Source of the DNA: Myxococcota bacterium
GTDB taxonomy: Bacteria; Myxococcota; Polyangia; GCA-2747355; JAKLHH01
Assembly (NCBI GenBank): GCA_022710245.1
Contig: JAKLHH010000174.1
Span: 1 to 10,209 of the forward strand
Reading direction: 5' to 3'
DNA length: 10,209 bases
The translations under genes were made by a program, and so were the position numbers. Below, piece by piece: positions 1 through 7,217 of this stretch (the stretch's first letter is position 1; each line of letters opens with the position of its first letter). The notes under the pieces were generated by a model that saw only the letters and a program-made list of their open reading frames with translations, searched no databases and was not told the origin of the DNA.

Positions 1-145
1 TCGGCTTCGCGCTACTCGATCGGCTTCGCGCTACTCGATCGGCTTCGCGCTACTCGATCGGCTTCGCGCTACTCGATCGGCTTCGCGCTACTCGATCGGC
101 TTCACGCTACTCGATCGGCTTCGCGCTACTCGATCGGCTTCACGC
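1..145. repeat. 19-bp tandem array at the 3' end of the leftmost gene
   Basis: Seven full 19-bp units are visible (2-20, 21-39, 40-58, 59-77, 78-96, 97-115, 116-134), plus an 11-bp partial copy at 135-145 inside the gene; the array runs off the left edge. Read on the minus strand the unit is ATCGAGTAGCGCGAAGCCG. Units differ only at one position, GTGAAG versus GCGAAG: the copy in the gene and unit 97-115 have GTGAAG. The last four sense codons (Lys-Pro-Ile-Glu) and the TAG stop of the gene are themselves part of the array. Because 19 is not a multiple of three, three successive units place TAG in all three frames. Whether it has a role or is replication-slippage noise cannot be told from the sequence. 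Confidence 0.97.
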
Positions 146-1427
146 AGTTCGCGATGTCGAAGATCAGGTACTCGAGGATGCGGTCCTGCGGCGAGGCCGA
201 GGCACCCGAGCAGTAGGCCGGATAGGCGAGCGGCAGGATCTCATCCTCGCGGCCCTCGGTGTGGTACGAGGAGTAGAGGATCTTGCCGCAGTTCTTGAAG
301 TTGAAGGTGAGCGTCAGCGGCCGCACGCCCTGGATGCTCCCGTCGCGGGACTTGATCGGGCCCTCCACCCAGAGCTTCACGTCCTTGGCGATGCTCGAGA
401 TGATCACCCAGTCGATGAGGAAGTACTCGATGGGGGAGGTCTTGCTGGCGTCGATCGCGTTCGGGAAGAGCTTGAGCCAGCTCGCCAGCGCGTCGTCCTT
501 GATGCTGGCCCGGATCTTCAGCCCGTCGGCGCCGAGCGCGCCGGCGTTCTGCGCCTCGGGGCTGCCGGCGGAGGCGCCGGGCTCGAAGTCGATGAAGGGC
601 GAGAAGGCCTCCACCTGCTCGATCCAGTCGTAGGACCAGTCGGTGACGTAGAAGCGGCCGCCCGACTGCATGTAGGTCGTGATGTTCTGCCGCACCTCGG
701 GCTTCTTCAGCTCGGCCTCGAAGGTGTTGGCGGTGCAGTTGATGAAGATGATGTTGTACGTCTTCATCCTGGCGAGGTCGCTCACCAGGCTCTGGAAGGT
801 GGGGAGCTTGGTCGGCGAGGTCAGCACGGTCGCGTCCTCGTAGAGGTCGAAGGCCCCGTCCTGCAGCCCGATCTTGCGCAGCACGCACTCCATCTTGTCG
901 TAGTCGCCGGTCGCCACGGCGATCTTGGGGACCGCGTCCGCGAGCTCGAACTCCTTCGCGCGCTTGGGCAGGCGGGTCTGCTCGGCGGTGAGCGCGACCG
1001 AGCCCTTCTCGGGCACGTCGACGTAGATCAGCCGGCGGAAGCGGCCGTTCTGCAGCACCAGCGGGCGCTTGCCAGGGCAGACCGAGGTCAGCTTGAAGGC
1101 GCCGTCGGTGGCGGAGGTCGTGTACCAGAGGTTGGTGGAGCCGCCGAAGGTCCCGCAGACCTCGCAGGTCACGTCCGGCGGGAAGAGCTCGGGGACCTGC
1201 GCCGGGATGAAGACCGAGGCGCCGGGCACCGGATCGGTGGCGTTCGGAGCAAGCACCTTGCCGGTGATCTCGCTCTCCTGCCCGGGGCAGGAGGGGCGCT
1301 GCGGGTTGACCCCGCTCTCGGGGTTGCCCGTCCAGCCGAACTCGTAGCCTGCGCCGTCGCCGGCGGAGAACTCGCTCCCGCCGCAGGCCGCGAGGAGCAG
1401 GACGACGAGCACGCTGAGGATGCGCAT
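126..1427 (-). CDS. Lipoprotein with carboxypeptidase-regulatory-like fold and amidotransferase-like region
   Basis: A 433-residue predicted lipoprotein, called gene A here. The start is the ATG at 1427-1425, preceded by GGAGG at 1438-1434 with a 6-nt gap. The frame stays open for 140 codons further upstream, but that part only reads through the 75-bp repeats and is not used. Residues 1-15 form a lipoprotein signal ending LLAAC, with Cys15 as the lipidation site and Gly at +2, which suggests the outer membrane. Residues about 52-130 (GKVL...PVPGASVFIP...TSATDGAFKLTSV) resemble a carboxypeptidase-regulatory-like beta-sandwich, with an inserted CxxC at 88-91. Residues about 171-270 (YNIIFINC, then QSGGRFYVTDWSYDWIE), and GKILYSSYHTEG at about 381-392, recall the flavodoxin-like fold of ThuA/class I glutamine amidotransferase-like proteins; no catalytic triad was identified. 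It is last in the cluster and its 3' end merges into the 19-bp array. Coding and lipoprotein status are firm, the fold assignments tentative, the function unknown. Confidence 0.9.
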   Translation of the reverse strand: MRILSVLVVLLLAACGGSEFSAGDGAGYEFGWTGNPESGVNPQRPSCPGQESEITGKVLAPNATDPVPGASVFIPAQVPELFPPDVTCEVCGTFGGSTNLWYTTSATDGAFKLTSVCPGKRPLVLQNGRFRRLIYVDVPEKGSVALTAEQTRLPKRAKEFELADAVPKIAVATGDYDKMECVLRKIGLQDGAFDLYEDATVLTSPTKLPTFQSLVSDLARMKTYNIIFINCTANTFEAELKKPEVRQNITTYMQSGGRFYVTDWSYDWIEQVEAFSPFIDFEPGASAGSPEAQNAGALGADGLKIRASIKDDALASWLKLFPNAIDASKTSPIEYFLIDWVIISSIAKDVKLWVEGPIKSRDGSIQGVRPLTLTFNFKNCGKILYSSYHTEGREDEILPLAYPAYCSGASASPQDRILEYLIFDIANCVKPIE

Positions 1428-1737
1428 GACGAACCTCCACGAGGGCGGTGCGGCGCGTGCCGCGACCTCAATCATCGCTTGGGCATCAGGGCCCGTCAAC
1501 GCGTTGGTGCCACCATCGCAGCCGGCCGTATGGGCTGCCATCGTGCAGCCGCGTCGACGAGGGCTCGCGGTCAACGCGTTGGTGCCACCATCGCAGCCGG
1601 CCGTATGGGCTGCCATCGTGCAGCCGCGTCGACGAGGGCTCGCGGTCAACGCGTTGGTGCCACCATCGCAGCCGGCCGTATGGGCTGCCATCGTGCAGCC
1701 GCGTCGACGAGGGCTCGCGGTCAACGCGGGCCCGCGG
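1428..1737. other. Intergenic region between genes B and A, mostly tandem repeats
   Basis: About 310 bp without a gene. It holds, in the direction of transcription, two short GTTGAC-edged fragments next to the gene B stop, three perfect 75-bp repeats, the possible gene A promoter and the ribosome binding site of A. All six frames are partly open through the repeats, because 75 is a multiple of three and the DNA is G+C-rich, but none has a start and ribosome site that suggest a protein. Confidence 0.85.
1471..1499 (-). promoter_or_regulatory. Possible promoter for gene A
   Basis: On the minus strand TTGACG (1499-1494), a 17-bp spacer and GATGAT (1476-1471) give sigma-70-like spacing. This would place a start near 1464 and a leader of about 37 nt before the ATG at 1427. 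The -35 is good but the -10 matches the consensus at only three positions. The -35 is the GTTGAC edge of the 75-bp repeat nearest the gene. Confidence 0.4.
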
Positions 1738-1745
1738 TCAACGCG
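1495..1745. repeat. Three perfect 75-bp tandem repeats plus two 9-bp fragments
   Basis: Units 1495-1569, 1570-1644 and 1645-1719 are identical over all 75 bases. They are followed by the first nine bases of the unit (gtcaacgcg) at 1720-1728 and again at 1737-1745. The last fragment overlaps the final codons and TGA stop of gene B, so the array appears to start at that gene's 3' end. Each unit contains several dyads: ggtg-c-cacc, a gcagcc/ggctgc stem with a 9-nt loop, and cgtcgacg. Each also carries, at its minus-strand 3' edge, a TTGAC that resembles a -35 element. Perfect identity points to recent expansion or ongoing homogenisation. Confidence 0.97.
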
Positions 1746-2568
1746 CGTCGCGAGCAGGCGGAGCGGGAGACGGGCCGGGTGCGCCGGCGCGAGCGTCGGC
1801 CGGCGACGCGGCGCGGCCGCGAGCCACCGCGGCGAGGTCGGGGTCACGGCGGGCGAGCTCGAGGCGCGCGCGCGCGAGCGGCGTCCCGAGGCTGCGCAGG
1901 CGCGCGAGGTGAGCGCGGGCGGCGGGGAGCTCTCCGAGGAGGGCCGAGCAGCGCGCGGCGTTGTAGAGCGAGAGCTCGAAGCTCGGGTCGACCCGGATCG
2001 CCGCCTCGAACCAGGCGCGCGCCTGACCCATGGCGCGCCGGCGGTAGAGGCGATAGCCGCGCATGTCCGCGACGCTCGCCACCTCCCGCCGCGGCACGCC
2101 GCCCTGGCGGAGCGCGGCGGTGAGCGCCGCGGCCTCCCGCGCCGCCGCGGCGAGCTGCGCGGGGCGCTCGGCGAGCGGCGGCCCCGGCTCGCGCGGGGGC
2201 GGCGGCGCGTGGGCCGGAGCCGGCGGCGGCGGCTCTCTGAGGTCGGGCGGGGGCGGCGCCGCGGGCGTGCTGCAACCGGTGCAGAGGAGCGCGAGGGCGC
2301 AGAGCGCGGGGGCGGGAGCGAGCGCGAGCGCGTGGCCGCAGCGCCCGAGGGCGCGAACGGCCGCGTGGCCGCAGCGCCCGAGGGCGCGCCCGAGCGCGTG
2401 GCCGCAGAGCGCGGGGGCGGGAGCGAGCGCGAGCGCGAGGCCGCAGCGCCCGAGGGCGCGAACGAGCGCGAGGCCGCAGCGCCCGAGGGCGCGAACGAGC
2501 GCGAGGCCGCAGAGCACGAGGGACCGAGCGAGCGCGAGGCCGCAGAGCACGAGGGACCGAGCGAGCAC
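1738..2568 (-). CDS. TPR-like lipoprotein with a repeat-expanded signal region
   Basis: Called gene B here; 276 residues from the proposed GTG at 2568-2566 to TGA at 1740-1738. No ATG exists between the gene C stop and residue 169, so GTG 2568 (or in-frame GTG at 2550 or 2517) is the only reasonable kind of start; no Shine-Dalgarno sequence precedes any of them, so the start is uncertain. Residues 1-93 are encoded by the 33/39-bp repeats and read as CGLALVRALGR-type 11-mers and CGLALALAPAPAL-type 13-mers. The final uncharged stretch, about residues 77-98, ends LLCTGC and looks like a lipoprotein signal with Cys99 as lipidation site. A Pro-rich linker (about 100-137) follows. Residues about 167-235 (RGYRLYRRRAMGQARAWFEAAIRVDP, read in two pieces, then LYNAARCSALLGELPAARAH) look like two TPR motifs. 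It lies 32 nt downstream of gene C and is probably co-transcribed. The role is unknown; TPRs suggest protein-protein contacts at the envelope. Confidence 0.7.
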   Translation of the reverse strand: MLARSLVLCGLALARSLVLCGLALVRALGRCGLALVRALGRCGLALALAPAPALCGHALGRALGRCGHAAVRALGRCGHALALAPAPALCALALLCTGCSTPAAPPPPDLREPPPPAPAHAPPPPREPGPPLAERPAQLAAAAREAAALTAALRQGGVPRREVASVADMRGYRLYRRRAMGQARAWFEAAIRVDPSFELSLYNAARCSALLGELPAARAHLARLRSLGTPLARARLELARRDPDLAAVARGRAASPADARAGAPGPSPAPPARDAR

Positions 2569-2580
2569 GAGGGGCCGAGC
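2302..2580. repeat. In-frame 33/39-bp minisatellite in the 5' part of gene B
   Basis: Consecutive units are 2302-2340 (39 bp), 2341-2373, 2374-2406 (33 each), 2407-2445 (39), 2446-2478, 2479-2511, 2512-2544 (33 each), then two 18-bp half units, 2545-2562 and 2563-2580. Most full units end ggccgca on the plus strand. Units 2446-2478 and 2479-2511 are identical; the rest are diverged. Every unit length (18, 33, 39) is a multiple of three, so the reading frame of gene B is never broken over 279 bp. This is indirect support that the array is translated. Confidence 0.95.
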
Positions 2581-2600: not shown

Positions 2601-4244
2601 CTACTTGCAGCAGCGGAAGCCGAGGGTGGGGAGCTGGAGCGACGAGCTCGGCGCGGGCAGGTCGTAGGTGCAGGAGAGGCCCGCCCCGTAGGTATCGATG
2701 CTGGGCGTGTCGTAGGCCCCGCCGTTGATCCCGTAGCCCGTCGGCTTGCCGGCGCTGAAGCCGGTCGCGGTCCACTCCTTCAAGTTGCCGCTCATGTTGT
2801 AGATCTTGGCGGCGCCGAAGGTGCTGACGCAGGTGCCGCCCGGCTGGTCCGTGGGCAGGACGTGCGGGTTGATGAGGTCGTAGGCGTGGCCGTTGCAGGT
2901 CTTCGGCTGGAAGGTCGCGCCGTAGGGGAAGTCGGTGTTCGCCGTGCCCCGGCAGGCCTGCTTCCACTGCGCCGTGGTGCAGAGGTGTCCGCCGACGCGG
3001 ACGCAGGCCGCCTCGGCGTCCTCCTTGGTGACCGACGCCCAGGGGAGCCTGCCGGGCAGGGAGCAGGGCCGCCCGTCGGAGATGATGCCGGGCTGCGAGG
3101 CTCCCGCGTCGGGCCGCGTGGCCTCGTACATGAAGATCTTGAAGGTGCCGACGGTGACCCAGGCCTCAGCGCCCGGGTTCTTCGCCAGGTCCAGGTTGTC
3201 GACGATCCCGTCGCAGTCGTCGTCGAGGCCGTTGCAGCTCTCCACCCCGGGCAGGCAGGCGCCGCAGTCGAACGGGCAGAGCTGGCAGCTCTCGCCGGGG
3301 TCGCACGTGCCGTTGCCGCAGAGGCCGCCGCTTGGCAGGAGCGCGCAGACGACGGACTTCTTCGTGCTGTCGCAGACGCCCTTGCCGATGGCCCGGCAGA
3401 TCCCCTTCTTGGTCTTGTCGAGGTCACAGTCCTTGCCGAGGACCACCGGCAGCGTGGGGTTCATCCAGGGGCCGTCCACGGCGTTGTCGCAGTCGCCGTC
3501 GACGTTGTCGCACTGGGTCTCGTTGCTGACGATGAGGCCCGGGCAGACCCCCTTGGCGGTGTCGCAGCAGCCGGTCTTGATCACGCCGTCGCAGCCGCAG
3601 TCCTGGTCCTTGGTGCACTTGACCAGCTCGATCCCCTTGCTGATGTCATAGTCGCAGATCCAGCCCAGCTTGCCGTGGCAGGACATCTTGGTCCCGGCGC
3701 AGGGGCCGTTCTGGCGGCAGAACTTGGTCTCGTCGGGCTTCGAGGTGTCGACGTTGTCGTCGGTCTTGCCGTTGCAGTCGTTGTCGACCCCGTCGCAGAC
3801 CTCGGCGCCCGAGTAGGTGCACTGGAACTCGCAGCCGTCGCTCGGGTCCTTGTTGAGATCGACCCAGCCGCCGACGCACGTCTTGATCACGCACTTGCCG
3901 GCCGCGCAGTCGGGGACGGCGTTCTTGCCGTACATCCAGCTGCAGCCCTTGCAGCTGTCGCAGAAGCGGACATCGGTCTGCTTGTCGAAGCCCTCGTCGG
4001 TCTGACCGTTGCAGTTGTCGTCGACGCCGTTGCAGACCTCGATCATCTTGATGCAGGCGTCGTAGCTCAGGTCCTTGCCGGGCTGGGTGTCCGGGCGGGC
4101 GTCGCTCGGCAGGTGCTCGACGAAGCCGACGTCGGGCCAGAGGTCGGGCGCCGAGCCGTCGCCGTAGTTGCGGATCCGGTAGGGGTCCTGCTGGCAGGCC
4201 GCCAGCGCGAGGAGGACGACGAAGCTATAGCGGAGCGCGCGCAT
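2601..4244 (-). CDS. MopE-motif lipoprotein with formylglycine-generating-enzyme-like domain
   Basis: Called gene C here; 547 residues. The ATG at 4244-4242 directly follows the gene D stop codon, and its GGAGGG ribosome site (4255-4250, 5-nt gap) lies inside the end of D, so translational coupling is likely. Residues 1-17 are a lipoprotein signal (LLALAAC, Cys17, Gln at +2). Four MopE-type metal-binding motifs follow: CNGVDDNCNGQTDE (71-84), CDGVDNDCNGKTDD (150-163), CDNVDGDCDNAVDG (245-258, degenerate) and CNGLDDDCDGIVDN (337-350). A CGNGTCDPGESC-type Cys-rich segment lies at about 309-330. Residues about 361-547 match the SUMF1/formylglycine-generating-enzyme fold: LCTTAQWKQACRG (421-433), GNLKEW (486-491) and terminal LGFRCCK. 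The paired CxxxxC cysteines that bind copper in true formylglycine-generating enzymes are not seen; only Cys525 lies near. It is therefore probably a structural or ligand-binding use of the fold. The motifs are known to bind metals (Ca or Cu) in some homologues; which metal here is unknown. Confidence 0.95.
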   Translation of the reverse strand: MRALRYSFVVLLALAACQQDPYRIRNYGDGSAPDLWPDVGFVEHLPSDARPDTQPGKDLSYDACIKMIEVCNGVDDNCNGQTDEGFDKQTDVRFCDSCKGCSWMYGKNAVPDCAAGKCVIKTCVGGWVDLNKDPSDGCEFQCTYSGAEVCDGVDNDCNGKTDDNVDTSKPDETKFCRQNGPCAGTKMSCHGKLGWICDYDISKGIELVKCTKDQDCGCDGVIKTGCCDTAKGVCPGLIVSNETQCDNVDGDCDNAVDGPWMNPTLPVVLGKDCDLDKTKKGICRAIGKGVCDSTKKSVVCALLPSGGLCGNGTCDPGESCQLCPFDCGACLPGVESCNGLDDDCDGIVDNLDLAKNPGAEAWVTVGTFKIFMYEATRPDAGASQPGIISDGRPCSLPGRLPWASVTKEDAEAACVRVGGHLCTTAQWKQACRGTANTDFPYGATFQPKTCNGHAYDLINPHVLPTDQPGGTCVSTFGAAKIYNMSGNLKEWTATGFSAGKPTGYGINGGAYDTPSIDTYGAGLSCTYDLPAPSSSLQLPTLGFRCCK

Positions 4245-6743
<2,499 letters not shown>

Positions 6744-6985: not shown

Positions 6986-7217
6986 CCCGGGCCAGCGGCT
7001 TCGCCGCGGCGTCGCCCGCTCCATCGAGGAGCTTGTTTTTCCGCTCGCTGGTGCGGCGACGTCGGGCGCGACTCTTCGCTCCAGGGTCTCGCCACGCATC
7101 ATTCCCGCGACGGCAGGCCGTGCAGGGGCGCCTGCGCGCGAGAGGTGCGCCGAGGAGGAGCGAGCGCTGAGGCTCGCTTGGGGCTCCTCGATGAAGCGGG
7201 CGACGCTCTGGCCCGGG
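6986..7217. repeat. Long imperfect inverted repeat
   Basis: A 24-bp segment at 7009-7032 is matched in inverted orientation at 7183-7206 with one mismatch. Its outer neighbour cccgggccag (6986-6995) is matched perfectly by ctggcccggg (7208-7217). The left arm carries about 13 extra bases (6996-7008) that fall within a small perfect hairpin, gcggc-ttc-gccgc (6995-7007). The arms enclose about 150 bp. It may be a dispersed intergenic repeat or the remnant of a small non-autonomous element; no transposase or target-site duplication was recognised. Confidence 0.85.
7018..7040 (+). terminator. Terminator-like hairpin and T-run with no gene in front
   Basis: gctcc (7018-7022), a 5-nt loop and ggagc (7028-7032) are followed by ttgttttt (7033-7040). 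This is the form of a weak intrinsic terminator reading on the plus strand, yet no plus-strand gene lies upstream of it in the window. It overlaps the inner end of the left arm of the inverted repeat. It may block antisense transcription towards gene E, or be incidental. Confidence 0.35.

Follow-up and report, generated by a model that had tools for sequence, protein, structure and literature searches.

Three unrelated minisatellites crowded into one operon-like gene run of an uncultured bacterium

Tandem repeats at gene junctions have been described before, and the closest cases are cited here from the accessible parts of the papers concerned. In Yersinia pestis, 10 of the 88 variable-number tandem repeats (VNTRs) lie at stop codons and six at start codons, one of the latter being a clustered regularly interspaced short palindromic repeat (CRISPR), and the units found at 3' ends measure 8-41 bp (PMC3689786). 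In Mycobacterium tuberculosis, the repeats upstream of Mtb-fpg1 are composite 55- and 79-bp units that fill a junction of 279-358 bp, the same junction having 1-54 bp in species outside the complex (PMC2734929, PMC12548453). The stretch of DNA analysed here, called the window, comprises 10,209 bases of an uncultured bacterium (G+C content of 71%) and contains an operon-like run of four genes in the order D-C-B-A, all on the minus strand. Three tandem repeat arrays are found along this run: array 1 at the end of A, array 2 at the B/A junction and array 3 between C and the body of B.

We regard it as likely that these are three independent, lineage-specific minisatellites, located in the least constrained DNA of the run. 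Arrays 1 and 2 are of the stop-overlapping minisatellite or VNTR kind, each having at least three head-to-tail units and, within the first of these, a stop codon that recurs in the others; array 3, with its units of 33 and 39 bp and its open frame, is predicted from the sequence to be an in-frame coding tandem repeat. The former two resemble the stop-overlapping VNTRs of Y. pestis in being short tandem units with the stop inside the repeat, the difference being that the window has two such arrays in one gene run and is known from a single sequence (PMC3689786). The composite repeats that fill the Mtb-fpg1 junction also find a counterpart here, but mycobacterial interspersed repetitive units (MIRUs) are dispersed and tied to start codons by an overlapping frame, an overlap that array 2 does not have (PMC2734929, PMC12548453). 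The Borg elements are alike in having intergenic and in-frame arrays side by side, in-frame units divisible by three and contigs that end in arrays, although their repeats are perfect and spread across the whole genome whereas array 3 is diverged (PMC9879509). Taken individually, the arrays are ordinary kinds of minisatellite, the stop-overlapping kind being already published, and only their crowding is unusual. No report of three such arrays in one operon was found in the literature searched, by title or abstract opening, and no cause of the crowding was found; three arrays in one gene run constitute a lead.

The arrays were detected with Tandem Repeats Finder (TRF), and 300 dinucleotide shuffles of positions 1-2600, with periods of at least 9, served as control. 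The best score among the shuffles was 107 (mean 36), compared with 276 for array 1, 468 for array 2 and up to 413 for array 3, which confirms that all three exist and puts them far beyond what chance produces. Their units are unrelated to each other. An earlier note on this DNA had described unrelated arrays at three successive gene boundaries, and was right as to their reality and their unrelatedness; however, array 3 does not lie clearly at the end of C, and the D/C boundary (4244/4245) has no array, which leaves arrays at three of the four boundaries of the run, the end of A being counted. Nor are the three arrays one phenomenon, since arrays 1 and 2 copy the stop of a gene and array 3 looks like a stretched protein leader. 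As for relatives, a class-level search covered 289 genomes drawn out of a larger group; the nearest of the genomes searched, identified via gene A, are G001 ('Myxococcales bacterium isolate HKST-UBA02'), G002 ('Deltaproteobacteria bacterium isolate AB_03_Bin_128') and G013, and together with G030 four genomes of one order were examined.

Array 1 (1-145, minus strand) consists of 19-bp units, CGYGAAGCCGATCGAGTAG, in 7.6 copies with 97% match. Its first copy is made of the last codons and the stop of gene A, GTG AAG CCG ATC GAG TAG on the coding strand, and this piece is repeated outward, the TAG being present in all seven full copies. A single site varies among these copies, reading T C T C C C C from the first to the seventh, so that growth of the array took more than one step. 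As the contig end cuts it, 145 bp is a lower bound on its length. A search with gene A yielded 167 proteins at E <= 0.001, itself included, the best other one being 71% identical over 93%, and the stop of A is considered to stand in its native place because the C-terminus, mostly KPIE or KPI, is conserved in an alignment of 28 homologues. In the relatives, 26 A-homologue loci were examined, representing 23 distinct genes (identity mostly 29-48%, and 55-64% for the closest); at none of them does an array of score >=40 lie over the stop. The predicted folding of array 1 (z of -7.7 relative to shuffles) was given no weight, since shuffling destroys the repetition and since the palindrome CGATCG is part of the 19-bp unit.

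Array 2 (1495-1728, minus strand; 75 bp x 3.1, 100% match) has a composite unit that consists of a 17-bp element, R (GCGTTGACCGCGRGCCC), followed by 58 bp. Copies of R are located at 1744, 1727, 1652 and 1577, with a variant at 1502, the last three steps being of 75 bp each, and each of the five copies contains a TGA. The first copies are recorded by TRF as a 17-bp partial repeat (1699-1745, minus strand, score 66), the very first of which covers the TGA stop of B (1738-1740). Only this 17-bp element straddles the stop, the 75-bp units proper beginning about 10 nt after it; the earlier claim that two arrays start in the last codons and stop of the preceding gene therefore stands in full for array 1, and for array 2 only by way of R. 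Beyond the array, a unique spacer (1428-1494, minus strand) includes a ribosome-binding-like sequence, and A has its own GGAGG and ATG there. One 75-bp unit folds no better than its shuffles (z of -0.05, and 0.64 for the other strand), two units giving a z of -2.4. As a separate observation, the C-terminus of B (1738-1815) is, by eye, about 25 residues longer than that of its best homologue, and is a low-complexity, G+C-rich sequence lying just before the array; the present stop of B may not be the ancestral one.

Array 3 (2290-2565, minus strand) is composed of eight units of 33 or 39 bp in the order a a b b c b' b'' c, and the leader in which it lies ends with LALAPAPALCALALLCTGC. The corresponding TRF rows overlap one another within 2287-2601, the 33-bp register (x 7.4, score 283) and the 105-bp register (x 2.4, score 413) both falling within 2287-2572. 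Clear units occupy 2565 to 2290, the first of them starting 35 nt past the stop of C (2601-2603); weaker rows reach 2583 and 2601, the last base of that stop (66-bp register, 74% match, score 245), and the first unit does not hold the stop. All units are divisible by three and the frame is open into B, the body of which runs from a lipobox-like Cys, recognized by eye, to its stop (1738-2274, minus strand). This arrangement makes an array in the 5' leader of B the best reading of array 3. Being more diverged than arrays 1 and 2, it is probably older. Among the B homologues, 16 of the 25 found were read by eye; as called, some have no leader and others up to about 50 residues ahead of the first likely Cys, and no repeated leader was seen. 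A search with B and part of the leader returned 24 homologues of 168-216 aa, covering at most 59% of the query. Besides, two distinct B genes found in the relatives have no arrays at their ends, and C, B and A do not occur together there. Neither protein search that used B as query lists the window's own B (1738-2568), while A is listed in its own; B may have been overlooked when genes were predicted for the database, or predicted with a different length.

What arrays do at stop codons in general was assessed on 2,263,477 bases of G013, G001 and G002 (genomes of 8.0, 11.2 and 7.6 Mb), taken as 140 stretches that were chosen non-randomly, by contig number, and that represent part of each genome. 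A dicodon caller, which in the window finds the stops of A, B, C and D as well as that of a HEAT-repeat gene, predicted 1,777 genes in this sample. Strong arrays, defined by a score >=150 and >=2.5 copies, number 29, of which 25 are within genes and four intergenic; none of the 29 overlaps a stop, which is weak evidence, since just four extend into non-coding DNA and the number expected at stops is 1.1. At a score >=50 there are 394 arrays, 51 of them touching non-coding bases, and 13 of these 51 contain a stop as compared with 10.6 +/- 2.9 expected under a same-genome null (P = 0.26), start codons being met less than by chance (6 of 51, null 11.8 +/- 3.1). Stops are thus met at about the chance rate in these relatives, a mild excess being not excluded, and the stop-codon habit proposed in the earlier note finds no support there at this P value, a looser null being considered below. 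Among 14 distinct stop-touching arrays, nine copy the stop one period downstream, with the same 'outward' look as in the window, most of them in 2-3 copies. The top-scoring case in these stretches is a 25 bp x 2.8 array copying a gene's TGA stop (L066, 5085-5153). Within genes, the period is divisible by three in 54/54 arrays of score >=100.

This 'outward' look follows from the fact that, after any duplication containing a stop, the first stop always ends the gene. The idea that gene 3' ends have been duplicated outward as a process is therefore not retained, all the more so as only two of the arrays clearly touch stops. 'Stop-anchored' repeats need no special process, in that the protein is unaffected when its stop codon is duplicated along with the flanking DNA, and the copies always appear to run outward; this geometry provides a simple null for others who meet such arrays. 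In the window, the first copy in arrays 1 and 2 contains the stop at which the gene still ends, and the units of array 3 do not shift the reading frame of B; no arrays are present at the orthologous loci that were inspected in the relatives. Slippage is the likely maker of the arrays: copies would be added by replication slippage or recombination between short direct repeats, of which R, flanking the 75-bp unit on either side, is an example, and would persist where the protein stays untouched. With an array across a stop codon, translation would still end at the first stop, and a leader would keep its frame as long as the unit length is a multiple of three. Stop anchoring would then reflect a filter imposed by selection and geometry, with no mechanism acting at gene ends.

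Several observations weigh against this explanation. In the relatives, 10 of 30 arrays contain a stop when a 90% match is required (null 5.9 +/- 2.2, P = 0.06), and a looser null, with placements pooled over the three genomes at score 50, gives 14 arrays at stops for 7.8 expected (P = 0.015). Several stop-overlapping VNTRs of Y. pestis show low diversity, and the authors suspect constraint, which argues against pure neutrality (PMC3689786, accessible part). In M. tuberculosis, the gene following the junction was expressed more strongly where the junction repeats were longer, and array 2 could for this reason affect A (PMC2734929, accessible part). The substitutions in array 3 are, by eye, not mainly at third codon positions, which gives no sign of selection on its amino acids. 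Above all, the crowding is left unexplained: three strong arrays lie in 10.2 kb of the window, as opposed to 29 in 2.26 Mb of the relatives, and none of 5,071 overlapping 10.2-kb windows of the latter holds two arrays of score >=150. The earlier impression that three arrays in a row exceed chance grouping is borne out by this comparison. With 0.13 strong arrays expected per 10.2 kb, the Poisson probability is about 3e-4 for a case that was chosen after the fact. At score >=100, two or three arrays occur together in 100 of the 5,071 windows (87 with two, 13 with three), and in none of them are there two arrays not wholly inside a gene. As the windows overlap and the case was picked after the fact, the crowding is a lead and no test.

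One way to account for the crowding is that the whole lineage has a genome-wide excess of gene-boundary minisatellites, due for example to a repair or replication defect or to a recent burst, the window being a sample of it. Three strong unrelated arrays in 2.6 kb, two of them nearly perfect and so probably young, as well as an array cover of 6.5% of the window as compared with 0.24-0.49% in the three relatives (score >=150), speak in this direction. However, no strong non-coding array occurs in the remaining 7.6 kb, to which the 585-bp spacer upstream of D belongs, no such excess is seen in those portions of three same-order relatives that were sampled, and the window was selected for looking odd; we hence consider this excess unlikely. 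A bolder version, slightly less probable still, would have the lineage make boundary minisatellites at more than ten times the relatives' rate, by a process that favours intra-operon junctions and that has turned one of them into a leader of now variable length carrying start codons. The arrays, or their copy numbers, might also be assembly artefacts of a metagenome contig. The contig does terminate inside array 1, the copies of array 2 are 100% identical, a relative's contig likewise ends in an array (L077, 3300-3394, 21 bp x 4.5), and assemblers often collapse such arrays, contigs often ending in them (PMC9879509, accessible part). On the other hand, the units contain the genes' own stop codons and frames, the copies of array 1 differ at one site, the units of array 3 are diverged, and arrays are not over-represented at the ends of 39 whole contigs of the relatives (found at 2 of 78 ends, with 1.8 expected), all of which makes an artefact very unlikely for one or more of the arrays.

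Two further alternatives bear on single arrays. Array 2 could be a MIRU-like element, that is, a 75-bp intercistronic repeat whose own open frame joins the stop of B to A. MIRUs are 40-100 bp long, and their insertion is reported to take place at start codons and to couple translation (PMC2734929, PMC12548453, accessible parts), and the 75-bp unit does lie between two genes, with a TTGA start/stop overlap in every copy of R and a frame that is open through the 75-bp units into A. This frame, however, passes in phase through the ATG of A instead of overlapping it by a few bases, A has a GGAGG-ATG of its own at which its homologues start, and open frames come cheap at 71% G+C. Furthermore, the unit is only weakly matched in G001 and G013 (45-50 bases, E ~0.005; at best 47 query bases, 78%, E 0.004) and is without a match in G002 and G030. 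A MIRU-like origin thus appears highly improbable. For array 3, either the leader is a long one of B, perhaps translated through coupling to C, or the array has silenced B. According to the second possibility, array 3 would have destroyed the start of B, which would be unexpressed, and would be a scar and no working leader. The only in-frame ATG, GTG or TTG codons between the stop of C and the Cys of B are indeed GTGs, at 2517, 2550 and 2568 (the last just beside the array), which stand >=81 codons from the Cys and follow pyrimidine-rich sequence in which no ribosome-binding site was seen; two further in-frame GTGs sit inside C. The absence of B, unlike A, from the proteins found with its own sequence points the same way. 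Yet the body of B has kept an open frame and 69% identity to its best homologue, the units of array 3 remain multiples of three, and coupling to C would be feasible, the stop of C being 32 nt upstream of the first GTG. We consider silencing doubtful, though clearly the most plausible of these alternatives.

Regarding the rest of the run, gene A (126-1427, minus strand) is an open reading frame of 433 aa that belongs to a metagenomic family, with its ATG at 1427. From their N-termini, read by eye, A and B would both be lipoproteins; neither A nor B itself has a Pfam match, PF07719 being found in some B homologues. Gene C (2601-4244, minus strand) is an open reading frame with Pfam matches to a MopE-type metal-binding motif and an FGE-sulfatase domain, and is preceded without any spacer by D (4245-6743, minus strand), a Cys-rich open reading frame with MopE-type motifs. 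A 63-bp coding repeat is present in a Cys-rich stretch of D (x 2.4 at 4452-4601 and x 2.0 at 4449-4576, TRF score up to 186), and the earlier statement that the coding bodies of C and D are repeat-free accordingly fails for D (4449-4601). The window contains no conserved RNA at Rfam gathering scores, and no plasmid match was found for 1-2600, phage records being outside that search. Finally, the 585-bp spacer upstream of D contains a 24-base inverted repeat (7009-7032 and 7183-7206, 96% complementary, arms 150 nt apart), possibly a long hairpin or a small structure resembling a mobile element.

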